Shown here one piece after another: positions 13,366 through 20,400 of a DNA stretch of 64,000 nt; positions within the stretch are counted from its first letter, which is position 1; each line of letters opens with the position of its first letter. Location of the stretch: the NCBI RefSeq assembly GCF_003284725.1, contig NZ_PGTO01000002.1, positions 248,001-312,000 of the forward strand, given 5' to 3'. A model generated the notes under the pieces. The model saw only the letters and a list, made by a program, of their open reading frames with translations. It searched no databases and had not been told where the DNA came from. The position numbers and the translations under genes are program-made. This DNA is from Paramagnetospirillum kuznetsovii. GTDB lineage: Bacteria > Pseudomonadota > Alphaproteobacteria > Rhodospirillales > Magnetospirillaceae.

Positions 13366-13941
13366 ATGCCCCCGAGAGGTCGCCCCCGCGTGGATTCCGT
13401 CATCCTGGATCACGCCTTGCGCCTGTTCTACCGCGAGGGCATCCGCTCGACCGGCGTCGATCGCATCATCGCCGAGGCCGGTGTGGCGGGAATGAGCTTT
13501 TATCGCAACTTCAAGTCCAAGGACGGTTTGGTCGCCGCCGTGCTCAAGCGCCGTGACGAGGCCTGGATGGCTTGGCTGACCGGCGTGGTGGAAGCGGGTG
13601 AAGCCAGCCCGGCCGGACGGGTGGCCCGGATCTTCGACGCTCTCGATCAGTGGTTCAAAGGTCCGGATTTTCACGGCTGTATGTTCATCAACGCGGCGGG
13701 CGAATTCGCCGATCCCGCCTGCACCGTCCGCCGGGCCGCCGCCGCCCATAAGGAACGGCTCAAATCCTATATGGGTGGCCTGTGCCGATCCGCCGGGCTT
13801 GCCTCCGAGATTGCCGACATGCTGTTCCTGCTGGCCGAGGGCGCCATCGTGGCTGCTTTCGTCCAAGGCGACCTCGGTGCGGCTGGAACGGCGGGCAAGG
13901 CGGCGGCCCTGTTGATTCGCGCCCAAACTTCCCAGGAGTGA
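13366..13941 (+). CDS. TetR/AcrR-family transcriptional regulator
   Basis: A 191-residue repressor. The N-terminal helix-turn-helix is clear: ILDHALRLFYREGIRSTGVD followed by IIAEAGVAGMSFYRNFKSKD, the canonical TetR recognition-helix pattern. The C-terminal ligand domain (from about residue 60) is Ala/Leu rich and contains a GCMFINAAGEF stretch common in the TetR group with C-terminal domains of the YcdC/LmrA type. It lies five bases upstream of a DJ-1/PfpI gene and is probably co-transcribed with it. It likely represses itself through the palindrome at 13334-13349. The effector is unknown. Confidence 0.88.
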   Translation: MPPRGRPRVDSVILDHALRLFYREGIRSTGVDRIIAEAGVAGMSFYRNFKSKDGLVAAVLKRRDEAWMAWLTGVVEAGEASPAGRVARIFDALDQWFKGPDFHGCMFINAAGEFADPACTVRRAAAAHKERLKSYMGGLCRSAGLASEIADMLFLLAEGAIVAAFVQGDLGAAGTAGKAAALLIRAQTSQE

Positions 13942-13946
13942 GTTCC

Positions 13947-14603
13947 ATGCCCCATCATCCCGGCTTTCGTCTCGGCATCTATGTGTTCAAGGATGCCGAG
14001 ATTATCGATTACGCCGCACCCCATGGCGTGTTCTCGGTGGCGCGGCGCCTGGACCCCGAGCTCGAGGCTTTCCTGATCGCCGATGCGGCCCGGCCGGTCC
14101 AGACCCAGGCGGGCTTCACCGTGCTGCCCAATTACAGCTTCGCCGACCGGCCCGCCATGGACGCCTTCCTGATCCCCGGCGGCTTCGGCACCCGGCAGGA
14201 AATGCATAACCGACGTCTGCACGAGTTCATCCGCGCCCTTCCCGCCGAGACGCTGTTGACCAGCGTCTGCACCGGGTCGTGGATTTACGGCGCCATGGGA
14301 TTGCTGGACGGCTTGCCCGCCACCAACCGCAAGGAGCCGGACCGGCTGGAAGCGTCCGGGGCCGGGATGGTTCCCATCGACCGGCTGGCCAAGATCGCGC
14401 CCGCCTGCCGCATCAGCCGGGCGCGGGTGGTCGACGCGGGCCGGATCGTCACCGCCGGGGGCATCGCCTCGGGGATGGAGATGGGCTTCCATCTGCTGCG
14501 CCGGGCCGGTTATGGCGAGGACTTCATCACCGAGGTGGCCCGCGTCATGGAATACGCCCAGGCCTACGAGGCCTATCGCGGCGATATCGAGTATGCCGCC
14601 TGA
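13947..14603 (+). CDS. DJ-1/PfpI-family protein
   Basis: A 218-residue class I glutamine-amidotransferase-like protein. The nucleophile elbow is at C108 in LLTSVCTGSW, preceded by the acidic strand DAFLIPGGFGTR. The family position that usually reads ATTHW reads ATNRKEPD here, so the usual histidine is missing. This fits a DJ-1 subgroup distinct from isonitrile hydratase. The start at 13947 follows a CAGGAG ribosome binding site and only five bases after the TetR stop. A stress-response or small-molecule hydratase role is plausible, but the substrate cannot be deduced. Confidence 0.8.
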   Translation: MPHHPGFRLGIYVFKDAEIIDYAAPHGVFSVARRLDPELEAFLIADAARPVQTQAGFTVLPNYSFADRPAMDAFLIPGGFGTRQEMHNRRLHEFIRALPAETLLTSVCTGSWIYGAMGLLDGLPATNRKEPDRLEASGAGMVPIDRLAKIAPACRISRARVVDAGRIVTAGGIASGMEMGFHLLRRAGYGEDFITEVARVMEYAQAYEAYRGDIEYAA

Positions 14604-14833: not shown

Positions 14834-15283
14834 TCAGTAGCGCTTGTAGGACAGGAACTTGCCCGACATGTTCAGCTTGACGCGGTCGCCCTTGGGGTCG
14901 GGCTGGCGCTCCATGGTCATGTCGAAGTCGATGGCCGACATGATGCCGTCGCCGAATTCTTCCTGGATCAGCTCCTTGAAGGTGGTGCCGTAGACCATCA
15001 CCAGCTCGTAGAAGCGATAGATCAGCGGGTCGGTGGGCGGCATGGACGGGATCGAGCCGCGATAGGGAATCTCGGCCAGCAGCAGCGCCGCGTCGGCGGG
15101 CAGGCCCAGCAGGGTGGCGGCCTTCTCGGCCTCGGCCTTTTCCAAGGTCATCTGGCCCAGCAGGGCGGCGGTGATGCAGATGGGAGAAACGGACGGATTG
15201 ATGGCGGCGGCGATGTCCTTCCAGGACTTGCCGCTCTTGCGCTTGGCATCATGGACCAGTTGGGTGACGTCGTCGCGGGTCAT
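14834..15283 (-). CDS. cynS: cyanate hydratase (cyanase)
   Basis: A 149-residue protein matching cyanase along its full length. An N-terminal helical domain is followed by the catalytic C-terminal domain with R90, E93 and S116. These are spaced exactly as the known catalytic Arg, Glu and Ser (Arg to Glu 3, Glu to Ser 23), within YRFYELVMVYGTTFKELIQE and GIMSAIDF. Cyanase converts cyanate and bicarbonate to ammonia and two CO2, via carbamate, in the cytoplasm. Its start overlaps the stop of the upstream ATPase gene as ATGA, so it is translationally coupled to the transporter. It is the last gene of the operon. Confidence 0.96.
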   Translation of the reverse strand: MTRDDVTQLVHDAKRKSGKSWKDIAAAINPSVSPICITAALLGQMTLEKAEAEKAATLLGLPADAALLLAEIPYRGSIPSMPPTDPLIYRFYELVMVYGTTFKELIQEEFGDGIMSAIDFDMTMERQPDPKGDRVKLNMSGKFLSYKRY

Positions 15284-16134
15284 GGCTGTTTCTCCTCTGT
15301 GGTGGTGTCGAGGCCCGGCGTGGTGAATTTGGGCTTGCGAGGATCGAAGGTGGAGCGGTCGAACTGCTTCGAGCGGTCCACCAGGAACTCGATCAGGTGA
15401 TTGCGGATGCGGTAATAATGGGGATGCCGGTGCAGATCGGCACGGTTGCGGTCGCGCGGCATGGTGTTGACCACGATCTCGGCGATCACCGCGCCGGGGC
15501 CGTTGGTCATCAGGATGATCTTGTCGGCCAGCAGGATCGCCTCGTCCACGTCATGGGTGATCATGAACACCGTCTGCGCCGTCTGGTGGCAGATGCGCAG
15601 CACCTCGTCTTGCAAGGTGCCGCGGGTGAGGGCGTCCAGGGCGCTGAAGGGCTCGTCCATCAGCAGCATCTTGGGCTCGATGGACAGGGCGCGGGCGATG
15701 CCCACCCGCTGCTTCATGCCGCCCGACAACTGGGCAGGCTTCTTGTCGGCGGCATTGCCCAATCCGACCAGTTCGATGAATTTCAAGGCGTGGGCGCGGC
15801 GCTTGGCCTTGTCCCAGTCGGGCCAGCGCGACCGCACCGCGAAGGCCACATTGTCCAGCACGCTCATCCACGGCATCAGCGCGTGGCTTTGGAAGATGAC
15901 CGCCCGGTCCAGGGACGGGCCGGATATCTCGCGCCCTCCCACCAGGATGACGCCGTCGCTGGCTTCTTCCAGCCCGGCCAGGGCGTTGAGGATGGTGGTC
16001 TTGCCGCAGCCGGAATGGCCGATCAGGCAGACGAACTCGCCCTTGCCGATGGTGAAGTACAGATTCTCGAACACCGCCGTGGCGCCGTAGGTCTTGGCCA
16101 GATCGTCGACGAGGACGAAGGGATTCACGGTCAT
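15280..16134 (-). CDS. cynD: cyanate/nitrate-type ABC transporter ATPase
   Basis: A 284-residue ATPase of the NrtD/TauB/SsuB class. Walker A GHSGCGKTT, signature LSGGM, Walker B LLMDEP and the switch histidine in MITHDVDEA are all intact. The C-terminal extension after the ATPase core (HPHYYRIRNHLIEFL) is typical of the nitrate, bicarbonate and cyanate subfamily. It follows the permease gene by four bases and overlaps cynS by four bases. Cyanate as the substrate is inferred from the adjacent cyanase gene. Confidence 0.9.
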   Translation of the reverse strand: MTVNPFVLVDDLAKTYGATAVFENLYFTIGKGEFVCLIGHSGCGKTTILNALAGLEEASDGVILVGGREISGPSLDRAVIFQSHALMPWMSVLDNVAFAVRSRWPDWDKAKRRAHALKFIELVGLGNAADKKPAQLSGGMKQRVGIARALSIEPKMLLMDEPFSALDALTRGTLQDEVLRICHQTAQTVFMITHDVDEAILLADKIILMTNGPGAVIAEIVVNTMPRDRNRADLHRHPHYYRIRNHLIEFLVDRSKQFDRSTFDPRKPKFTTPGLDTTTEEKQP

Positions 16135-16138
16135 GGCG

Positions 16139-16978
16139 CTACTCCGGATAGGTGACCAGCCTCACCAGACGGGCGAGGACTTGGTCGAGCGCCATTCCCA
16201 CCAACCCGATCATCAGGATGGCGTTCATAACGTTGGTGATGGACAGGTTGTTCCATTCGTTCCACACGAAATAGCCGATGCCGGTGCCGCCCACGAGCAT
16301 CTCGGCCGCCACGATCACCAGCCAGGCGATGCCGATGGAAATGCGCATGCCGGTGAGGATGGTGGGAGCGGCGGCGGGCAGGATGACCTGAAGCGCCTTG
16401 CGGAGCGGCCCCACTTCCAGCGTCCGGGCGACGTTCAGCCATTCCTTGCGCACCGAGGCCACCCCGAACGCCGTGTTCAGCAGCATGGGCCACAGCGAGC
16501 AGATGAAGATGACGAAGATGGCCGAGGCCGACGAATCCTTGATGGTGTAAAGCGCCAGAGGCATCCAGGCCAGGGGTGAGATGGGCTTCAAGACCTGGAA
16601 GAACGGGTCCAGGGCCTTGTGCATCAGCGGGCTCATGCCGATCAGGAAGCCCAAGGGGATGGCCACCGCCACCGCCAGCCCAAAGCCCCCCAGCACGCGC
16701 ACCAGGGAAAAGGCCAGTTGGATGCCGACGCCCTTGTCGTTGGGGCCGTTATCGTAAAAGGGATGGCTGAGATGCCACCAGAATTTCCCCAGCACCTCCA
16801 TGGGGCCGGGCATGGCCGACTTTCCCGCCACCGCCGTGGCGCCCATCAGGCGGGCGTATTCCGGGTCCACATCGGCCACCACCCCGGTTCCCAGGGTGGC
16901 CAGATGCCACAGAAGCAGGAAACCGGCCAGCAGGGCGGTCGAAACGATGGCCGCCCGCAGGCGAAGCGAGGAAATCAT
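16139..16978 (-). CDS. cynB: cyanate/nitrate-type ABC transporter permease
   Basis: A 279-residue inner-membrane permease of the BPD_transp_1 fold, with an N-terminal anchor (residues about 8-27) and around five further membrane segments. The EAA-loop-like region is seen in VGPLRKALQVILPAAAPTIL. The central stretch FFQVLKPISPLAWMPLAL is characteristic of NrtB/CmpB/CynB permeases. It starts two bases after the stop of the binding-protein gene. Together with the binding protein and ATPase it forms a complete importer. Confidence 0.9.
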   Translation of the reverse strand: MISSLRLRAAIVSTALLAGFLLLWHLATLGTGVVADVDPEYARLMGATAVAGKSAMPGPMEVLGKFWWHLSHPFYDNGPNDKGVGIQLAFSLVRVLGGFGLAVAVAIPLGFLIGMSPLMHKALDPFFQVLKPISPLAWMPLALYTIKDSSASAIFVIFICSLWPMLLNTAFGVASVRKEWLNVARTLEVGPLRKALQVILPAAAPTILTGMRISIGIAWLVIVAAEMLVGGTGIGYFVWNEWNNLSITNVMNAILMIGLVGMALDQVLARLVRLVTYPE

Positions 16979-16980
16979 GA

Positions 16981-18360
16981 TCAGCTCCGCTTGATGGCGA
17001 AGCTGTCGATGTATTCCTTGGGCTTGGACGGGTCGAATTCCTTGCCCATGATGACGTGCTTCTTGAAGCTTTCATTGGGCGCGGCGAGCCCGGCTTCCTT
17101 CATGGCCCGATTGGCGTCCACCGCCAGAAAGACCTGGGTGGCGATGCTGCCGTAATTGATGTCGTCCTTTAGTTGGCCCCAGCGCTTCATCTGCGACAGA
17201 ATCCACACCGCCATGGAATGCCAGGGGAAGGGCTCGAAGCCGATGCGGTCGGGAACCTTGCGGATATTGCCCAGGCCATCGGCGAAGGTGCCGGTCAGCA
17301 CCTGCTCCACCACCGTCACCGGCTGGTTCAGGTAATTGGCCGGGGCGATGGCGGCCGCGATCTCCTTGCGGTTCTCCGCCTTGGTGGCATAGGCGGTGGC
17401 ATCGACGATGGAGCGCAGCAGCGCCTGGAAGGTGTTGGGATTCTGGGTCACGAATTCCCGGCTGGCCGAAAAGGCGCAGCACGGATGGCCGTCCCAGATT
17501 TCCTTGGACAGGATGTGGATGAAGCCGACGCCGTCATAGACGGCGCGCTGGTTCACCGGATCGGGGGCCAGGAAGCCGTCGATATTGTCGGCCCGCAGAT
17601 TGGCCACCATCTCGGGCGGCGGCACCGCCCTGATCTGGACGTCCCGGTCGGGGTCGATGCCGTGCTCGGCCAGATAATAGCGCAGCAGATAATTATGCAT
17701 GGAGTAGTCGAAGGGCACGGCGAGCTTGAAGCCCTTCCAATCCTTGGGGTCGCGCCGCTCCTTGTGCTTCATGGCCAAGGTGATGGCCTGGCCGTTGACG
17801 TTCTCGATGGCGGGCATGGTCCAGGGAACCGGGTTGGACCCCACCCCCAGCGAGATGGCCAGCGGCATGGGCGACAGCATATGGGCGGCGTCGTATTCCT
17901 TGTTCATGGCCTTGTCGCGGATGATGGCCCAGCCGGCGGTCTTGATGACCTCGGCGTTCAGGCCGTAGCGCGCGTAAAAGCCCATGGGCTGCGCCATGAT
18001 GATGGGGGTGGCGCAGGTGATGGGGATGAAGCCGATCTTGACGTCCTTCTTCTCCAGCGGACCGATCTTCTCGGCGGCGAAGGCCTCGCGGGCGGCGGCT
18101 AATGGAAAGAATTGCGAAACGGCCGCCATGGCCGTCCCCGAGCCGACCGCCTTCAGGAAGCCGCGCCGGGTGGTGTCGTCGGGGAACAGGGCGCGCATGA
18201 TCGCCTGATCGACGACGCTGCCGTAACGGGTGTCCTCGGCGGCGGCGGCCTGGGCGCGCTCGGCGGCATCTGCGTCATGGGCTTCCTGGCTGGAATGATT
18301 GCCGCATGAACAGCGCGACAGCCCGTGCCGGGGATTGAACGCGTCATCGAACATAGCCAT
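16981..18360 (-). CDS. cynA: Tat-exported cyanate/nitrate-type substrate-binding protein
   Basis: A 459-residue protein of the NrtA/CmpA/CynA group. The start at 18360 is chosen because an AAGGGGAC ribosome binding site lies just upstream. The longer frame has no such site and would run into the sigma-54 promoter. The N-terminus carries a Cys/His-rich segment, LSRCSCGNHSSQEAH, before a twin-arginine signal (DDTTRRGFLKAVG). Folded export through Tat is therefore expected. The mature part has the family sequences IGFIPITCATPIIMAQP and DGFLAPDPVNQRAVY. Whether it binds cyanate, nitrate or both cannot be fixed from sequence. The cyanase partner favours cyanate. Confidence 0.9.
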   Translation of the reverse strand: MAMFDDAFNPRHGLSRCSCGNHSSQEAHDADAAERAQAAAAEDTRYGSVVDQAIMRALFPDDTTRRGFLKAVGSGTAMAAVSQFFPLAAAREAFAAEKIGPLEKKDVKIGFIPITCATPIIMAQPMGFYARYGLNAEVIKTAGWAIIRDKAMNKEYDAAHMLSPMPLAISLGVGSNPVPWTMPAIENVNGQAITLAMKHKERRDPKDWKGFKLAVPFDYSMHNYLLRYYLAEHGIDPDRDVQIRAVPPPEMVANLRADNIDGFLAPDPVNQRAVYDGVGFIHILSKEIWDGHPCCAFSASREFVTQNPNTFQALLRSIVDATAYATKAENRKEIAAAIAPANYLNQPVTVVEQVLTGTFADGLGNIRKVPDRIGFEPFPWHSMAVWILSQMKRWGQLKDDINYGSIATQVFLAVDANRAMKEAGLAAPNESFKKHVIMGKEFDPSKPKEYIDSFAIKRS

Positions 18361-18400
18361 GGCTTGGTCCCCTTGATCGGATTGCGTTGAGCCAACCAAG

Positions 18401-18417
18401 TGCAATGGGCTTGCCAA
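18401..18417 (-). promoter_or_regulatory. sigma-54 (-24/-12) promoter of the cyanate operon
   Basis: On the minus strand the sequence reads TGGCAAGCCCATTGCA within 18401-18417. Compared with the sigma-54 consensus TGGCACGNNNNTTGCW it differs at one defined base, and GG and GC are 12 bases apart. It would start transcription near 18390, about 30 bases before the cynA start codon. Confidence 0.8.
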
Positions 18418-18473
18418 GTGGAATGACAGCGCCAAAGGCGCGGAAACCGCCGGTTTTTCCTTGGGTGGCCATG

Positions 18474-18527
18474 TAACGAGATTTCGTTATTTACGGAACT
18501 TCGTGATCTTGTTACGATTTTTCGTAA
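18474..18527. promoter_or_regulatory. three palindromic enhancer sites for the sigma-54 activator
   Basis: Three 16-bp palindromes share the pattern TWACGRNNNNTYGTRA: TAACGAGATTTCGTTA at 18474, TTACGGAACTTCGTGA at 18491 and TTACGATTTTTCGTAA at 18512. They lie about 85-135 bp upstream of the predicted cyn transcript start, the usual distance for sigma-54 upstream activating sites. They end 10 bases before the divergent activator's start codon, so autoregulation is also likely. The bound protein is inferred. Confidence 0.72.
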
Positions 18528-18537
18528 AGGAGCCGCC

Positions 18538-20400
18538 GTGACCACTCTCGCCCCTCTTCTGCTCGATGCCATGGCCGAAGCCGTGGTCGCCTTCGATCCG
18601 GTCGACGACCGCATCCTGGCGGCCAATGCCGCTGCCTGCCGCCTCTATGGGCGGCGAAGCGAGGATCTGGTCGGCGCGCGCATGAGCGCCCTGCATCCCG
18701 ACCAGTTTCCCAGTCTGGTGGTGTTCACCGAGGCGGTGCTGCATCAAGGGCGCGGCTGGACCCGCGCCCTGGCCTTGGAGGACGCCGACGGCAAGGGTCG
18801 GCAATTGGAATATCTGGCATCGCGCCTGACCCTCGACCAGCGCCAGGTGGTGGTGAGCCTGGTCAACGACCTCGAGGATGTGCGCCGCCGCGAGGTGGAT
18901 TCCGAGGCCGACGGCTTCCTGCGCGACGGCATGGAGGGATGGCGGCGGGTCGAGCAGGTCTTTCGCGACATCGAACGGCACAACCAGCTGATCCTGGGCG
19001 CGGCGGGCGAGGGAATTTACGGCGTCAACGCCGAGGGCAAGGCCACCTTCGTCAATCCGGCGGCCGAACGCTTGTTGGGCTGGAAGGCCGCCGACCTCGT
19101 CACCAGGAACATCCATCACGTGGTTCATTACGCCCATCCCGACGGTAGCCATTACGACGAGAAGGACTGTCCCATCTATTCGGCCTTTCGCGACGGCGCC
19201 ACCCGGCGGGTGGAAGACGACGTCTTTTGGCGCAAGGACGGCGCCCCCATCCGGGTGGAATACACCAGCACGCCCATCCGCGACCGCGGATCCATCGTCG
19301 GGGCGGTGATCGTCTTCCGCGACATCACGTCGCGCAAGGAATCCGAGGAACGGCTGCGCGCCGCCCTGGAAGAGGTGGAGCAGTTGCGCCAGCGTCTCGA
19401 ACTGGAAAACGCCTATCTCCAAGAAGAAATCAAGACCGAGCGCAAGCATCACGAGATCATCGGCGCCAGCGCCGCCATCCAACGTCTGTTGCGCCAGATC
19501 GAACTGGTGGCCGCCACCGAGGCGACGGTGCTGATCACCGGCGAATCCGGCACCGGCAAGGAACTGATCGCCCGCGCCCTGCACCAGGGCTCCAGCCGGT
19601 CGCACCGGCCCATGATCCGGGTCAATTGCGCCGCCATCCCGCGCGAGCTGTTCGAAAGCGAGTTCTTCGGCCATGTGAAGGGTGCCTTCACCGGGGCGGT
19701 GCGTGACCGGGTTGGGCGCTTCGAACTGGCCGACGGCGGCACCTTGTTCCTGGACGAGCTGGGCGAAATTCCGCTGGAGCTTCAGCCCAAATTGCTGCGG
19801 GTGCTTCAGGAGGGGCATTTCGAGCGGGTCGGCGAGGACCGCACCCGCTCGGTGGATGTCCGCGTCATCGCCGCCACCAACCGCCGCCTGGACGAGGAGG
19901 TGGCGCGCGGCACCTTCCGCGAGGATCTGTTCTATCGCCTGAACGTGTTTCCCATCGAATCGGTCCCACTGCGCCAGCGGCGCGACGATATTCCGCTGCT
20001 GGCGGCCCATATCGTCAAGACCTGCGCCCTGCGGCTGGGACGCCCGGCGCCGCAATTGACCCGAGGCGGCATCGAACAGTTGATGGACTACGACTGGCCC
20101 GGCAATGTGCGCGAGTTGGAGAACATCATCGAGCGGGCGGTGATCCTGGATCAGGGCGGGCGGCTTGCCTTCGACATCCCCGGCCGACGGGTGGGACTCC
20201 CCCTTCCCGCCACGCCGAGTCAGCCCGCCGAGGCCGTCGTCACCGAAACCAACCGGCGCGCCCGCGACCGCGCCAACATCATCCAGGCCCTGGCGGCCTG
20301 CGGCGGGCGCGTCTCCGGCCCCAGCGGCGCCGCCGCCATGCTGGGAGTCAGGCCGACCACCCTGGCGTCCCGAATCAAAACCCTCGGCATTCGTCCCTAG
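18538..20400 (+). CDS. PAS-domain sigma-54-dependent activator, probable regulator of the cyanate operon
   Basis: A 620-residue enhancer-binding protein with a GTG start after AAAGGAG. An N-terminal PAS-like region (about 5-120) is followed by a second PAS domain (about 140-265, [20 protein letters not shown]) and a short coiled coil. The AAA+ domain comes next, with Walker A GESGTGKE, the sigma-54-contacting loop GAFTGA, Walker [11 protein letters not shown] and [13 protein letters not shown]. The C-terminus is a Fis-type helix-turn-helix ([20 protein letters not shown]). There is no receiver domain, so a small molecule or redox cue is expected through PAS. It is divergent from cynA, with palindromes and a sigma-54 promoter between, which makes the cyn operon its likely target. 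Confidence 0.92.

Follow-up and report, generated by a model that had tools for sequence, protein, structure and literature searches.

Described regulators of the same kind

The closest described system is that of Pseudomonas pseudoalcaligenes CECT5344 (cynFABDS), in which cynF lies opposite cynABDS and is reported to encode a Fis-like, sigma-54-dependent regulator. The same report describes a CynF mutant with no cyanase activity, calls CynF essential for cynABDS, predicts a sigma-54 site before cynA and records cyanate induction and ammonium repression in this organism (PMC6627978). A Bradyrhizobium rpoN study also names cynS among the genes of reduced expression (PMC13207237). The first-pass annotation of the present locus had taken a dedicated sigma-54 activator for cyanate to be a different regulatory logic. 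Since CynF control of cynABDS was already on record, with a mutant phenotype and a sigma-54 promoter prediction, that claim to novelty fails, and we correct here the idea that sigma-54 cyanase control is new. The regulator type is known; the enhancer design described below was found in no literature searched. The string 'palindrom' has no occurrence in the main text of PMC6627978, and among the openly accessible main texts listed on cynF, on cyanase with sigma-54 or RpoN, on nit1C and on palindromes we recognised no description of the dyads.

A second point of comparison is NorR of Escherichia coli, for which three sites, all of them required, are reported to nucleate one hexamer (PMC2941729, PMC4987338). 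In the norR-norVW region of strain MG1655 we find GT-N7-AC sites spaced 21 and 24 bp, with 55 bp separating them from the -24/-12 box.

Genes of the cyn locus

The stretch analysed here, referred to as the window, comprises 64 kb of the Paramagnetospirillum kuznetsovii genome. The minus strand carries, in transcriptional order, cynA (16981-18360), an NMT1/NrtA-like solute-binding protein with a Tat signal (PF13379, TIGR01409); cynB (16139-16978), an ABC permease (TIGR01183, above cut-off); cynD (15280-16134), an ABC ATPase (TIGR01184, above cut-off); and cynS (14834-15283), the cyanase (TIGR00673 and PRK02866 above cut-off; PF02560). The start of cynA is most likely the ATG at 18360. With the cyanase last, the order across 14834-18360 matches the CynF-cynABDS type. 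Divergent from cynA on the plus strand is cynF (18538-20400, GTG start), whose 620-residue product has the build PAS-PAS-AAA+-Fis-type HTH with an intact GAFTGA (Pfam PAS, Sigma54_activat, AAA_lid_14 and HTH_8); its activator core is recognised by PF00158 and PF25601 and its C-terminal Fis-type HTH by PF02954. The locus thus shares with CECT5344 the divergent Fis-like regulator, the cynABDS order and a box before cynA.

Unlike NorR, whose GAF domain senses NO, the protein encoded here is built with PAS domains; no GAF domain was found among its Pfam hits, and it scores 374.7 against the NorR equivalog cut-off of 476. Nor is this the arrangement of the LysR-type CynR, the divergent neighbour being a sigma-54 activator and the regulator gene on the cynS side being of the TetR type. 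TetR-family and DJ-1/PfpI-family genes adjoin cynS at 13366-14603. We also observed that CynA carries an N-terminal C-x-C-G-x-H motif ahead of the Tat signal, present too in an open frame of locus L014, which is a possible metal site.

In CynF we found no residue specific for cyanate sensing. A His193/His197/Cys211 motif of the second PAS domain was considered as a cyanate sensor and set aside as generic, because two further PAS proteins of this genome share it (L007, L008). No claim draws on the structure model (pLDDT 77.8, pTM 0.41), and a search for solved relatives returned the usual sigma-54 activators and was used for none.

Sequence elements of the control region

At the sequence level a sigma-54 promoter is present before cynA, as expected of a CynF-cynABDS switch. 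This -24/-12 box, TGGCAAGCCCATTGCA, reads from 18416 to 18401 on the minus strand and differs at one position from the consensus TGGCACGN4TTGCW. Nowhere else in the 64 kb is TGGCANGN4TTGCW matched. The -12 element at 18402 predicts a transcription start near 18390, which places the three dyads found upstream of the box at about -84 to -137. The promoter-proximal dyad 1, TAACGAGATTTCGTTA, lies at 18474-18489, leaving a gap of 57 bp to the box; dyad 2, TTACGGAACTTCGTGA, lies at 18491-18506, 17 bp from dyad 1; and dyad 3, TTACGATTTTTCGTAA, lies at 18512-18527, 21 bp from dyad 2. These candidate CynF enhancer sites account for all three matches to TNACGN6CGTNA in the window.

The first-pass annotation had described a one-mismatch promoter facing cynA, three palindromes about 85-135 bp upstream of the predicted start, and a divergent PAS-AAA+-Fis activator with an intact GAFTGA beginning 10 bp beyond them, and each of these features was recovered, with two PAS domains in the activator. 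Its 16-bp form for the palindromes, TWACGRNNNNTYGTRA, held in part: three sites are present, and the consensus fits two of them, since the first site ends in TTA. The dyads are also imperfect, with 7/8 arm pairs in site 1, 6/8 in site 3 and, by hand count, 5/8 in site 2, which fell below the 6/8 needed to be reported by the palindrome scan.

The cynF GTG at 18538 stands 10 bp past the end of dyad 3, and the cynF ribosome-binding site, AAAGGAG (18526-18532), overlaps the end of this dyad. Dyad 3 is therefore probably also part of the cynF leader or promoter, where it may affect cynF itself.

In their half-site letters, ACGAAA/TTTCGT, the dyads resemble the FhlA upstream activating sequence CATTTCGTACGAAATG as given in PMC4987338; there, however, the half-sites stand in the reverse arrangement and the regulon is that of formate. 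NorR too has three palindromes between a divergent activator and its operon, its sites being of the GT-N7-AC kind.

Within the 4.4-Mb genome of the organism, TNACGN6CGTNA occurs at 22 sites, against 34 for a reversed control pattern, and the exact 17-bp-spaced ACGN6CGT pair occurs once, at the cyn array, as against one match for its reversed control. No second array was found there with the exact patterns. A wider CynF regulon was also considered and rejected: across 42 genomes exact 17-bp pairs occur at 32 places, 27 at the cyn array and five elsewhere, with 44 for the reversed control; no second target is supported.

Conservation of the array among relatives

The comparison used the best 80 of 566 confirmed relatives and four more from a search of 149 genomes, the window's own aside. 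Among these 84 loci, cynA or cynS lies divergent upstream of CynF in 83, and the window together with these 83 relatives makes up the set of 84 regions; L019, which ends at a contig edge, was left out. The regions are not independent, since L010 and L011 are near-identical and L012 and L060 look like the same genome with the same array, and they are uneven, Bradyrhizobium being heavily represented.

In this set (the best 80 of 566, plus four) ACGN6CGT was found in 80 of the 84 regions, at 178 sites against a shuffle mean of 11.3, and a 17-bp-spaced pair of dyads in 58, with none in 100 rounds of dinucleotide shuffles. These plain-pattern counts are independent of the weight matrix, which was built from the same regions. 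When the matrix was used with both spacings free to vary from 12 to 29, the best triple had spacings of 17/21 in 44 regions, 17/22 in 28 and 17/23 in seven, that is 79 of the 84, and other spacings in five (L061, L064, L072, L073, L083). The best score in 252 shuffled regions was 1.4, compared with an observed median of 59.5. Boxes resembling that of cynA stand at the matching place in most relatives; none with up to three mismatches was seen in L078 or L084. AT-rich repeats in a GC-rich genome could arise by chance, and in one window alone they would be weak evidence for anything else. The conservation of the array in relatives, and the 58 regions with 17-bp pairs where shuffling gave none, make this reading of the palindromes negligibly probable.

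Three regions score low (4.9-10.2; L056, L074, L081) because their dyad letters differ. The free search nevertheless placed them at 17/22, 17/22 and 17/23 respectively despite the altered letters. Dyads of this GCA/TGC type in a similar layout were also seen, by eye, in L153 and L154, and possibly reflect a changed operator specificity. We considered whether the operator letters of these five loci covary with the recognition helix and rejected the idea: GCA-type operators accompany basic-plus-Trp/Leu recognition helices, but not exclusively, since similar residues occur where the motif is the ordinary one.

The Pseudomonas relatives L065, L066 and L085, with CynF proteins 57-58% identical to that of the window, carry a 17/23 array, whereas the window's own array is spaced 17/21 and stops 10 bp short of cynF. 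The array is also kept in L016, L025, L055, L057, L058, L089 and L092, where CynF stands opposite cynS and the stretch contains no ABC genes.

Coupling of the array to CynF

Searching 385 genomes of the class for cynA brought matches in 32, one of them the genome of the window, at 33 places. We compared 29 cynA loci besides the window; the surrounding stretch gave a CynF hit in 16 of them and none in 13. No array is present in any of these 13 CynF-less loci, where the 1.5 kb or so upstream holds no more than one ACGN6CGT and the best array score is -36.7 (spacings 17/21-23). Among the 16 loci with a CynF hit, 12 score at least 37, three score 1-3 and one, L147, is without the array; the 12 are not all new, since the arrays found in L130 and L148 are those already seen in L013 and L079. 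A box with up to two mismatches was found in 12 of the 13 CynF-less loci, a count made with no shuffle control.

The array belongs with CynF; what the sequences show are the elements themselves, their conservation and this coupling. The first-pass annotation had regarded the palindromes as candidate sites of a dedicated sigma-54 activator of the cyn operon, and had suggested comparing them wherever the gene pair is conserved. That comparison left the idea standing and supports a dedicated activator with the palindromes as its likely sites: array and box are kept in most relatives with the gene pair, and the 13 CynF-less cynA loci lack the array.

Distance from the array to the promoter

In the 77 of the 84 regions that have both a box and a 17-bp array, the gap between them is 44-81 bp, one doubtful value of 115 bp excepted. 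Over the 84 regions the distance from the array to the start of cynF, extrapolated in these relatives, ranges from -9 to 272 bp. Given gaps to the box near whole helical turns and a scattered distance to cynF, the array probably serves the cyn operon promoter. One could instead suppose that the dyads act mainly in autorepression of cynF and that cynABDS is activated through another site. Only 10 bp do separate dyad 3 from cynF, and in Vibrionales a NorR site ahead of norR2 has been proposed for negative autoregulation (PMC1274295); however, the position of the array is fairly constant with respect to the cynA box and not to cynF, and inspection by eye brought out no other shared element. We regard this as an improbable account of the dyads; the array more probably acts on cynABDS.

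Across 114 loci with an array and a box of up to two mismatches, the gaps lie near 45, 57, 67 and 80 bp for CynF, and near 90 and 99 bp for loci of the paralogue NitA (see below). On a CynF tree no fewer than nine changes of gap class are needed, the tree being a quick one with many weak and long branches and one class containing a doubtful box (L086). A first test of periodicity was discarded, as it was inflated by a single tight cluster and by shared ancestry, a fault that the smoothed null shares. When the main cluster (64-70 bp) was left out, the remaining gaps were more in phase with it than uniform gaps. At 10.5 bp the null reaches the observed phasing in 0.0008, 0.0065 and 0.0445 for representatives chosen at below 80, 70 and 65% identity (n = 15, 9 and 7 respectively). 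Because some relatedness persists among the representatives and the centre of the cluster was itself taken from these data, helical phasing of the array-box distance is suggestive only.

Nitrogen control

Ammonium control could be exerted through NtrC, and the activator of the operon might then be NtrC or some other general regulator of nitrogen use, with the dyads as its sites. For Pseudomonas both sigma-54 and ammonium control are known. After the regions were sorted by hand from record titles into 26 gammaproteobacterial and 58 taken as alphaproteobacterial, NtrC-like sites with up to two mismatches were found in 17 of the gamma regions (shuffle mean 2.1) and with up to one mismatch in nine (0.2). 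The dyads, though, do not match the NtrC consensus; the alpha regions, window included, have NtrC-like sites in two at up to two mismatches and in none of the 58 at up to one; and operons without CynF mostly keep the box and lack the array. This makes NtrC, or a regulator like it, a most improbable owner of the dyads, and CynF remains the preferred one.

Sixteen of the 17 gamma sites fall on that side of the box where the cyn operon lies; in several loci (for example L075, L080, L084, L089, L091) they stand about 64-68 bp downstream of it, inside the presumed leader. The Pseudomonas regions L065, L066 and L085 are gamma regions without such a site. From the presence of NtrC-like sites in the gamma group and their scarcity in the alpha group, ammonium control may be wired differently in the two. 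As control of the CynF-less operons NtrC sites were rejected, there being no enrichment in the 13 loci; twelve of these show a box with neither array nor NtrC-like enrichment (L126, L129, L131-L134, L136, L137, L139-L141, L143).

The NitA paralogue and other CynF-type loci

A Pseudomonas CynF query against 199 genomes of the genus of Pseudomonas sediminis gave matches in 20. They include proteins 49-52% identical to the window CynF, most of which face nitB and nitC. The nitB product matches the MSMEG_0572/Sll0783 family, and the nitC piece, cut by the end of the stretch, matches a Nit6803-family nitrilase model below cut-off. NitA is described as a Fis-family sigma-54-dependent regulator of the nit1C nitrilase cluster (PMC11049912), and the paralogue facing nitB/nitC fits this identity.

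There are 18 NitA loci, one genome being counted twice, as L175 and L182 are one place. They resemble the CynF loci in having a divergent sigma-54 activator of the same build and ACG/CGT dyads in threes, and differ in target operon and in a first spacing of 18 bp, found in 16 of the 18 (weakly in L169). The 18-bp triple dyads were seen upstream of the NitA-type gene in L164, L165, L167, L168, L170-L173 and L175-L180; L174 has another spacing, and L181 has neither an array nor a nitB/nitC hit in the stretch. Where a NitA locus has a box (15 loci), 89-90 or 98-99 bp separate it from the array, unlike in CynF loci. The window, with cyn genes and a first spacing of 17 bp, is not of the NitA type.

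Among CynF-type loci scoring at least 20, the first spacing is 17 in 113, 18 in three and another value in three, the 153 loci of the comparison including repeats of the same genome. A further 16 CynF-type loci score below 20; among these are L142, L144, L147 and L150, and also five shorter relatives (L201-L205) that have neither cyn nor nit genes beside them. The 17/18-bp split between CynF and NitA is thus strong but not absolute.

In some loci a CynF-type regulator faces a gene of the formate/nitrite-transporter family (PF01226, tested on the L163 copy), together with cynS in L161-L163, L166, L191, L196 and L200, and without cynS in the stretch in L195 and L198. In L092, too, a CynF-type regulator adjoins such a gene. 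This is apparently a second kind of cyanate operon, in which a channel replaces the ABC transporter.

A model of the switch and its implications

Taken as a whole, the region very probably acts as the switch that controls a cyanate-assimilation operon of the CynF type. In the mechanism we propose, CynF dimers would bind directly to the three ACGN6CGT dyads, and three dimers would assemble into one AAA+ hexamer; the analogy with NorR suggests that the three dyads may form the scaffold for that single hexamer. The PAS region would sense cyanate or a cyanate-derived signal. The hexamer would then loop over the roughly 57 bp to sigma-54 RNA polymerase at the -24/-12 box and, with ATP, open it, so that cynABDS would be transcribed. 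With the end of dyad 3 only 10 bp from cynF, CynF bound there probably limits its own synthesis too.

A bolder idea, which we offer tentatively and at somewhat less than even weight, is that CynF and NitA form one cyano-nitrogen activator family with one enhancer code. Three ACGN6CGT dyads would nucleate a single hexamer, and the promoter-proximal spacing, 17 bp for CynF and 18 bp for NitA, would keep cyanate and cyanide circuits apart despite like letters. The constraint to one face of the helix would have led the distance to the promoter to evolve in whole turns (about 45, 57, 67, 80, 90 and 99 bp).

The analysis provides a concrete binding motif and geometry for CynF, an operator found in no literature searched, within the scope of texts given above. 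It also links the regulators of cyanate (CynF) and of the cyanide-nitrilase cluster (NitA) by an enhancer design that both have in common. Should spacing in whole turns and the difference between 17 and 18 bp matter, the family would be a natural experiment on the assembly of sigma-54 activator hexamers on DNA and on the avoidance of cross-talk between paralogous activators.
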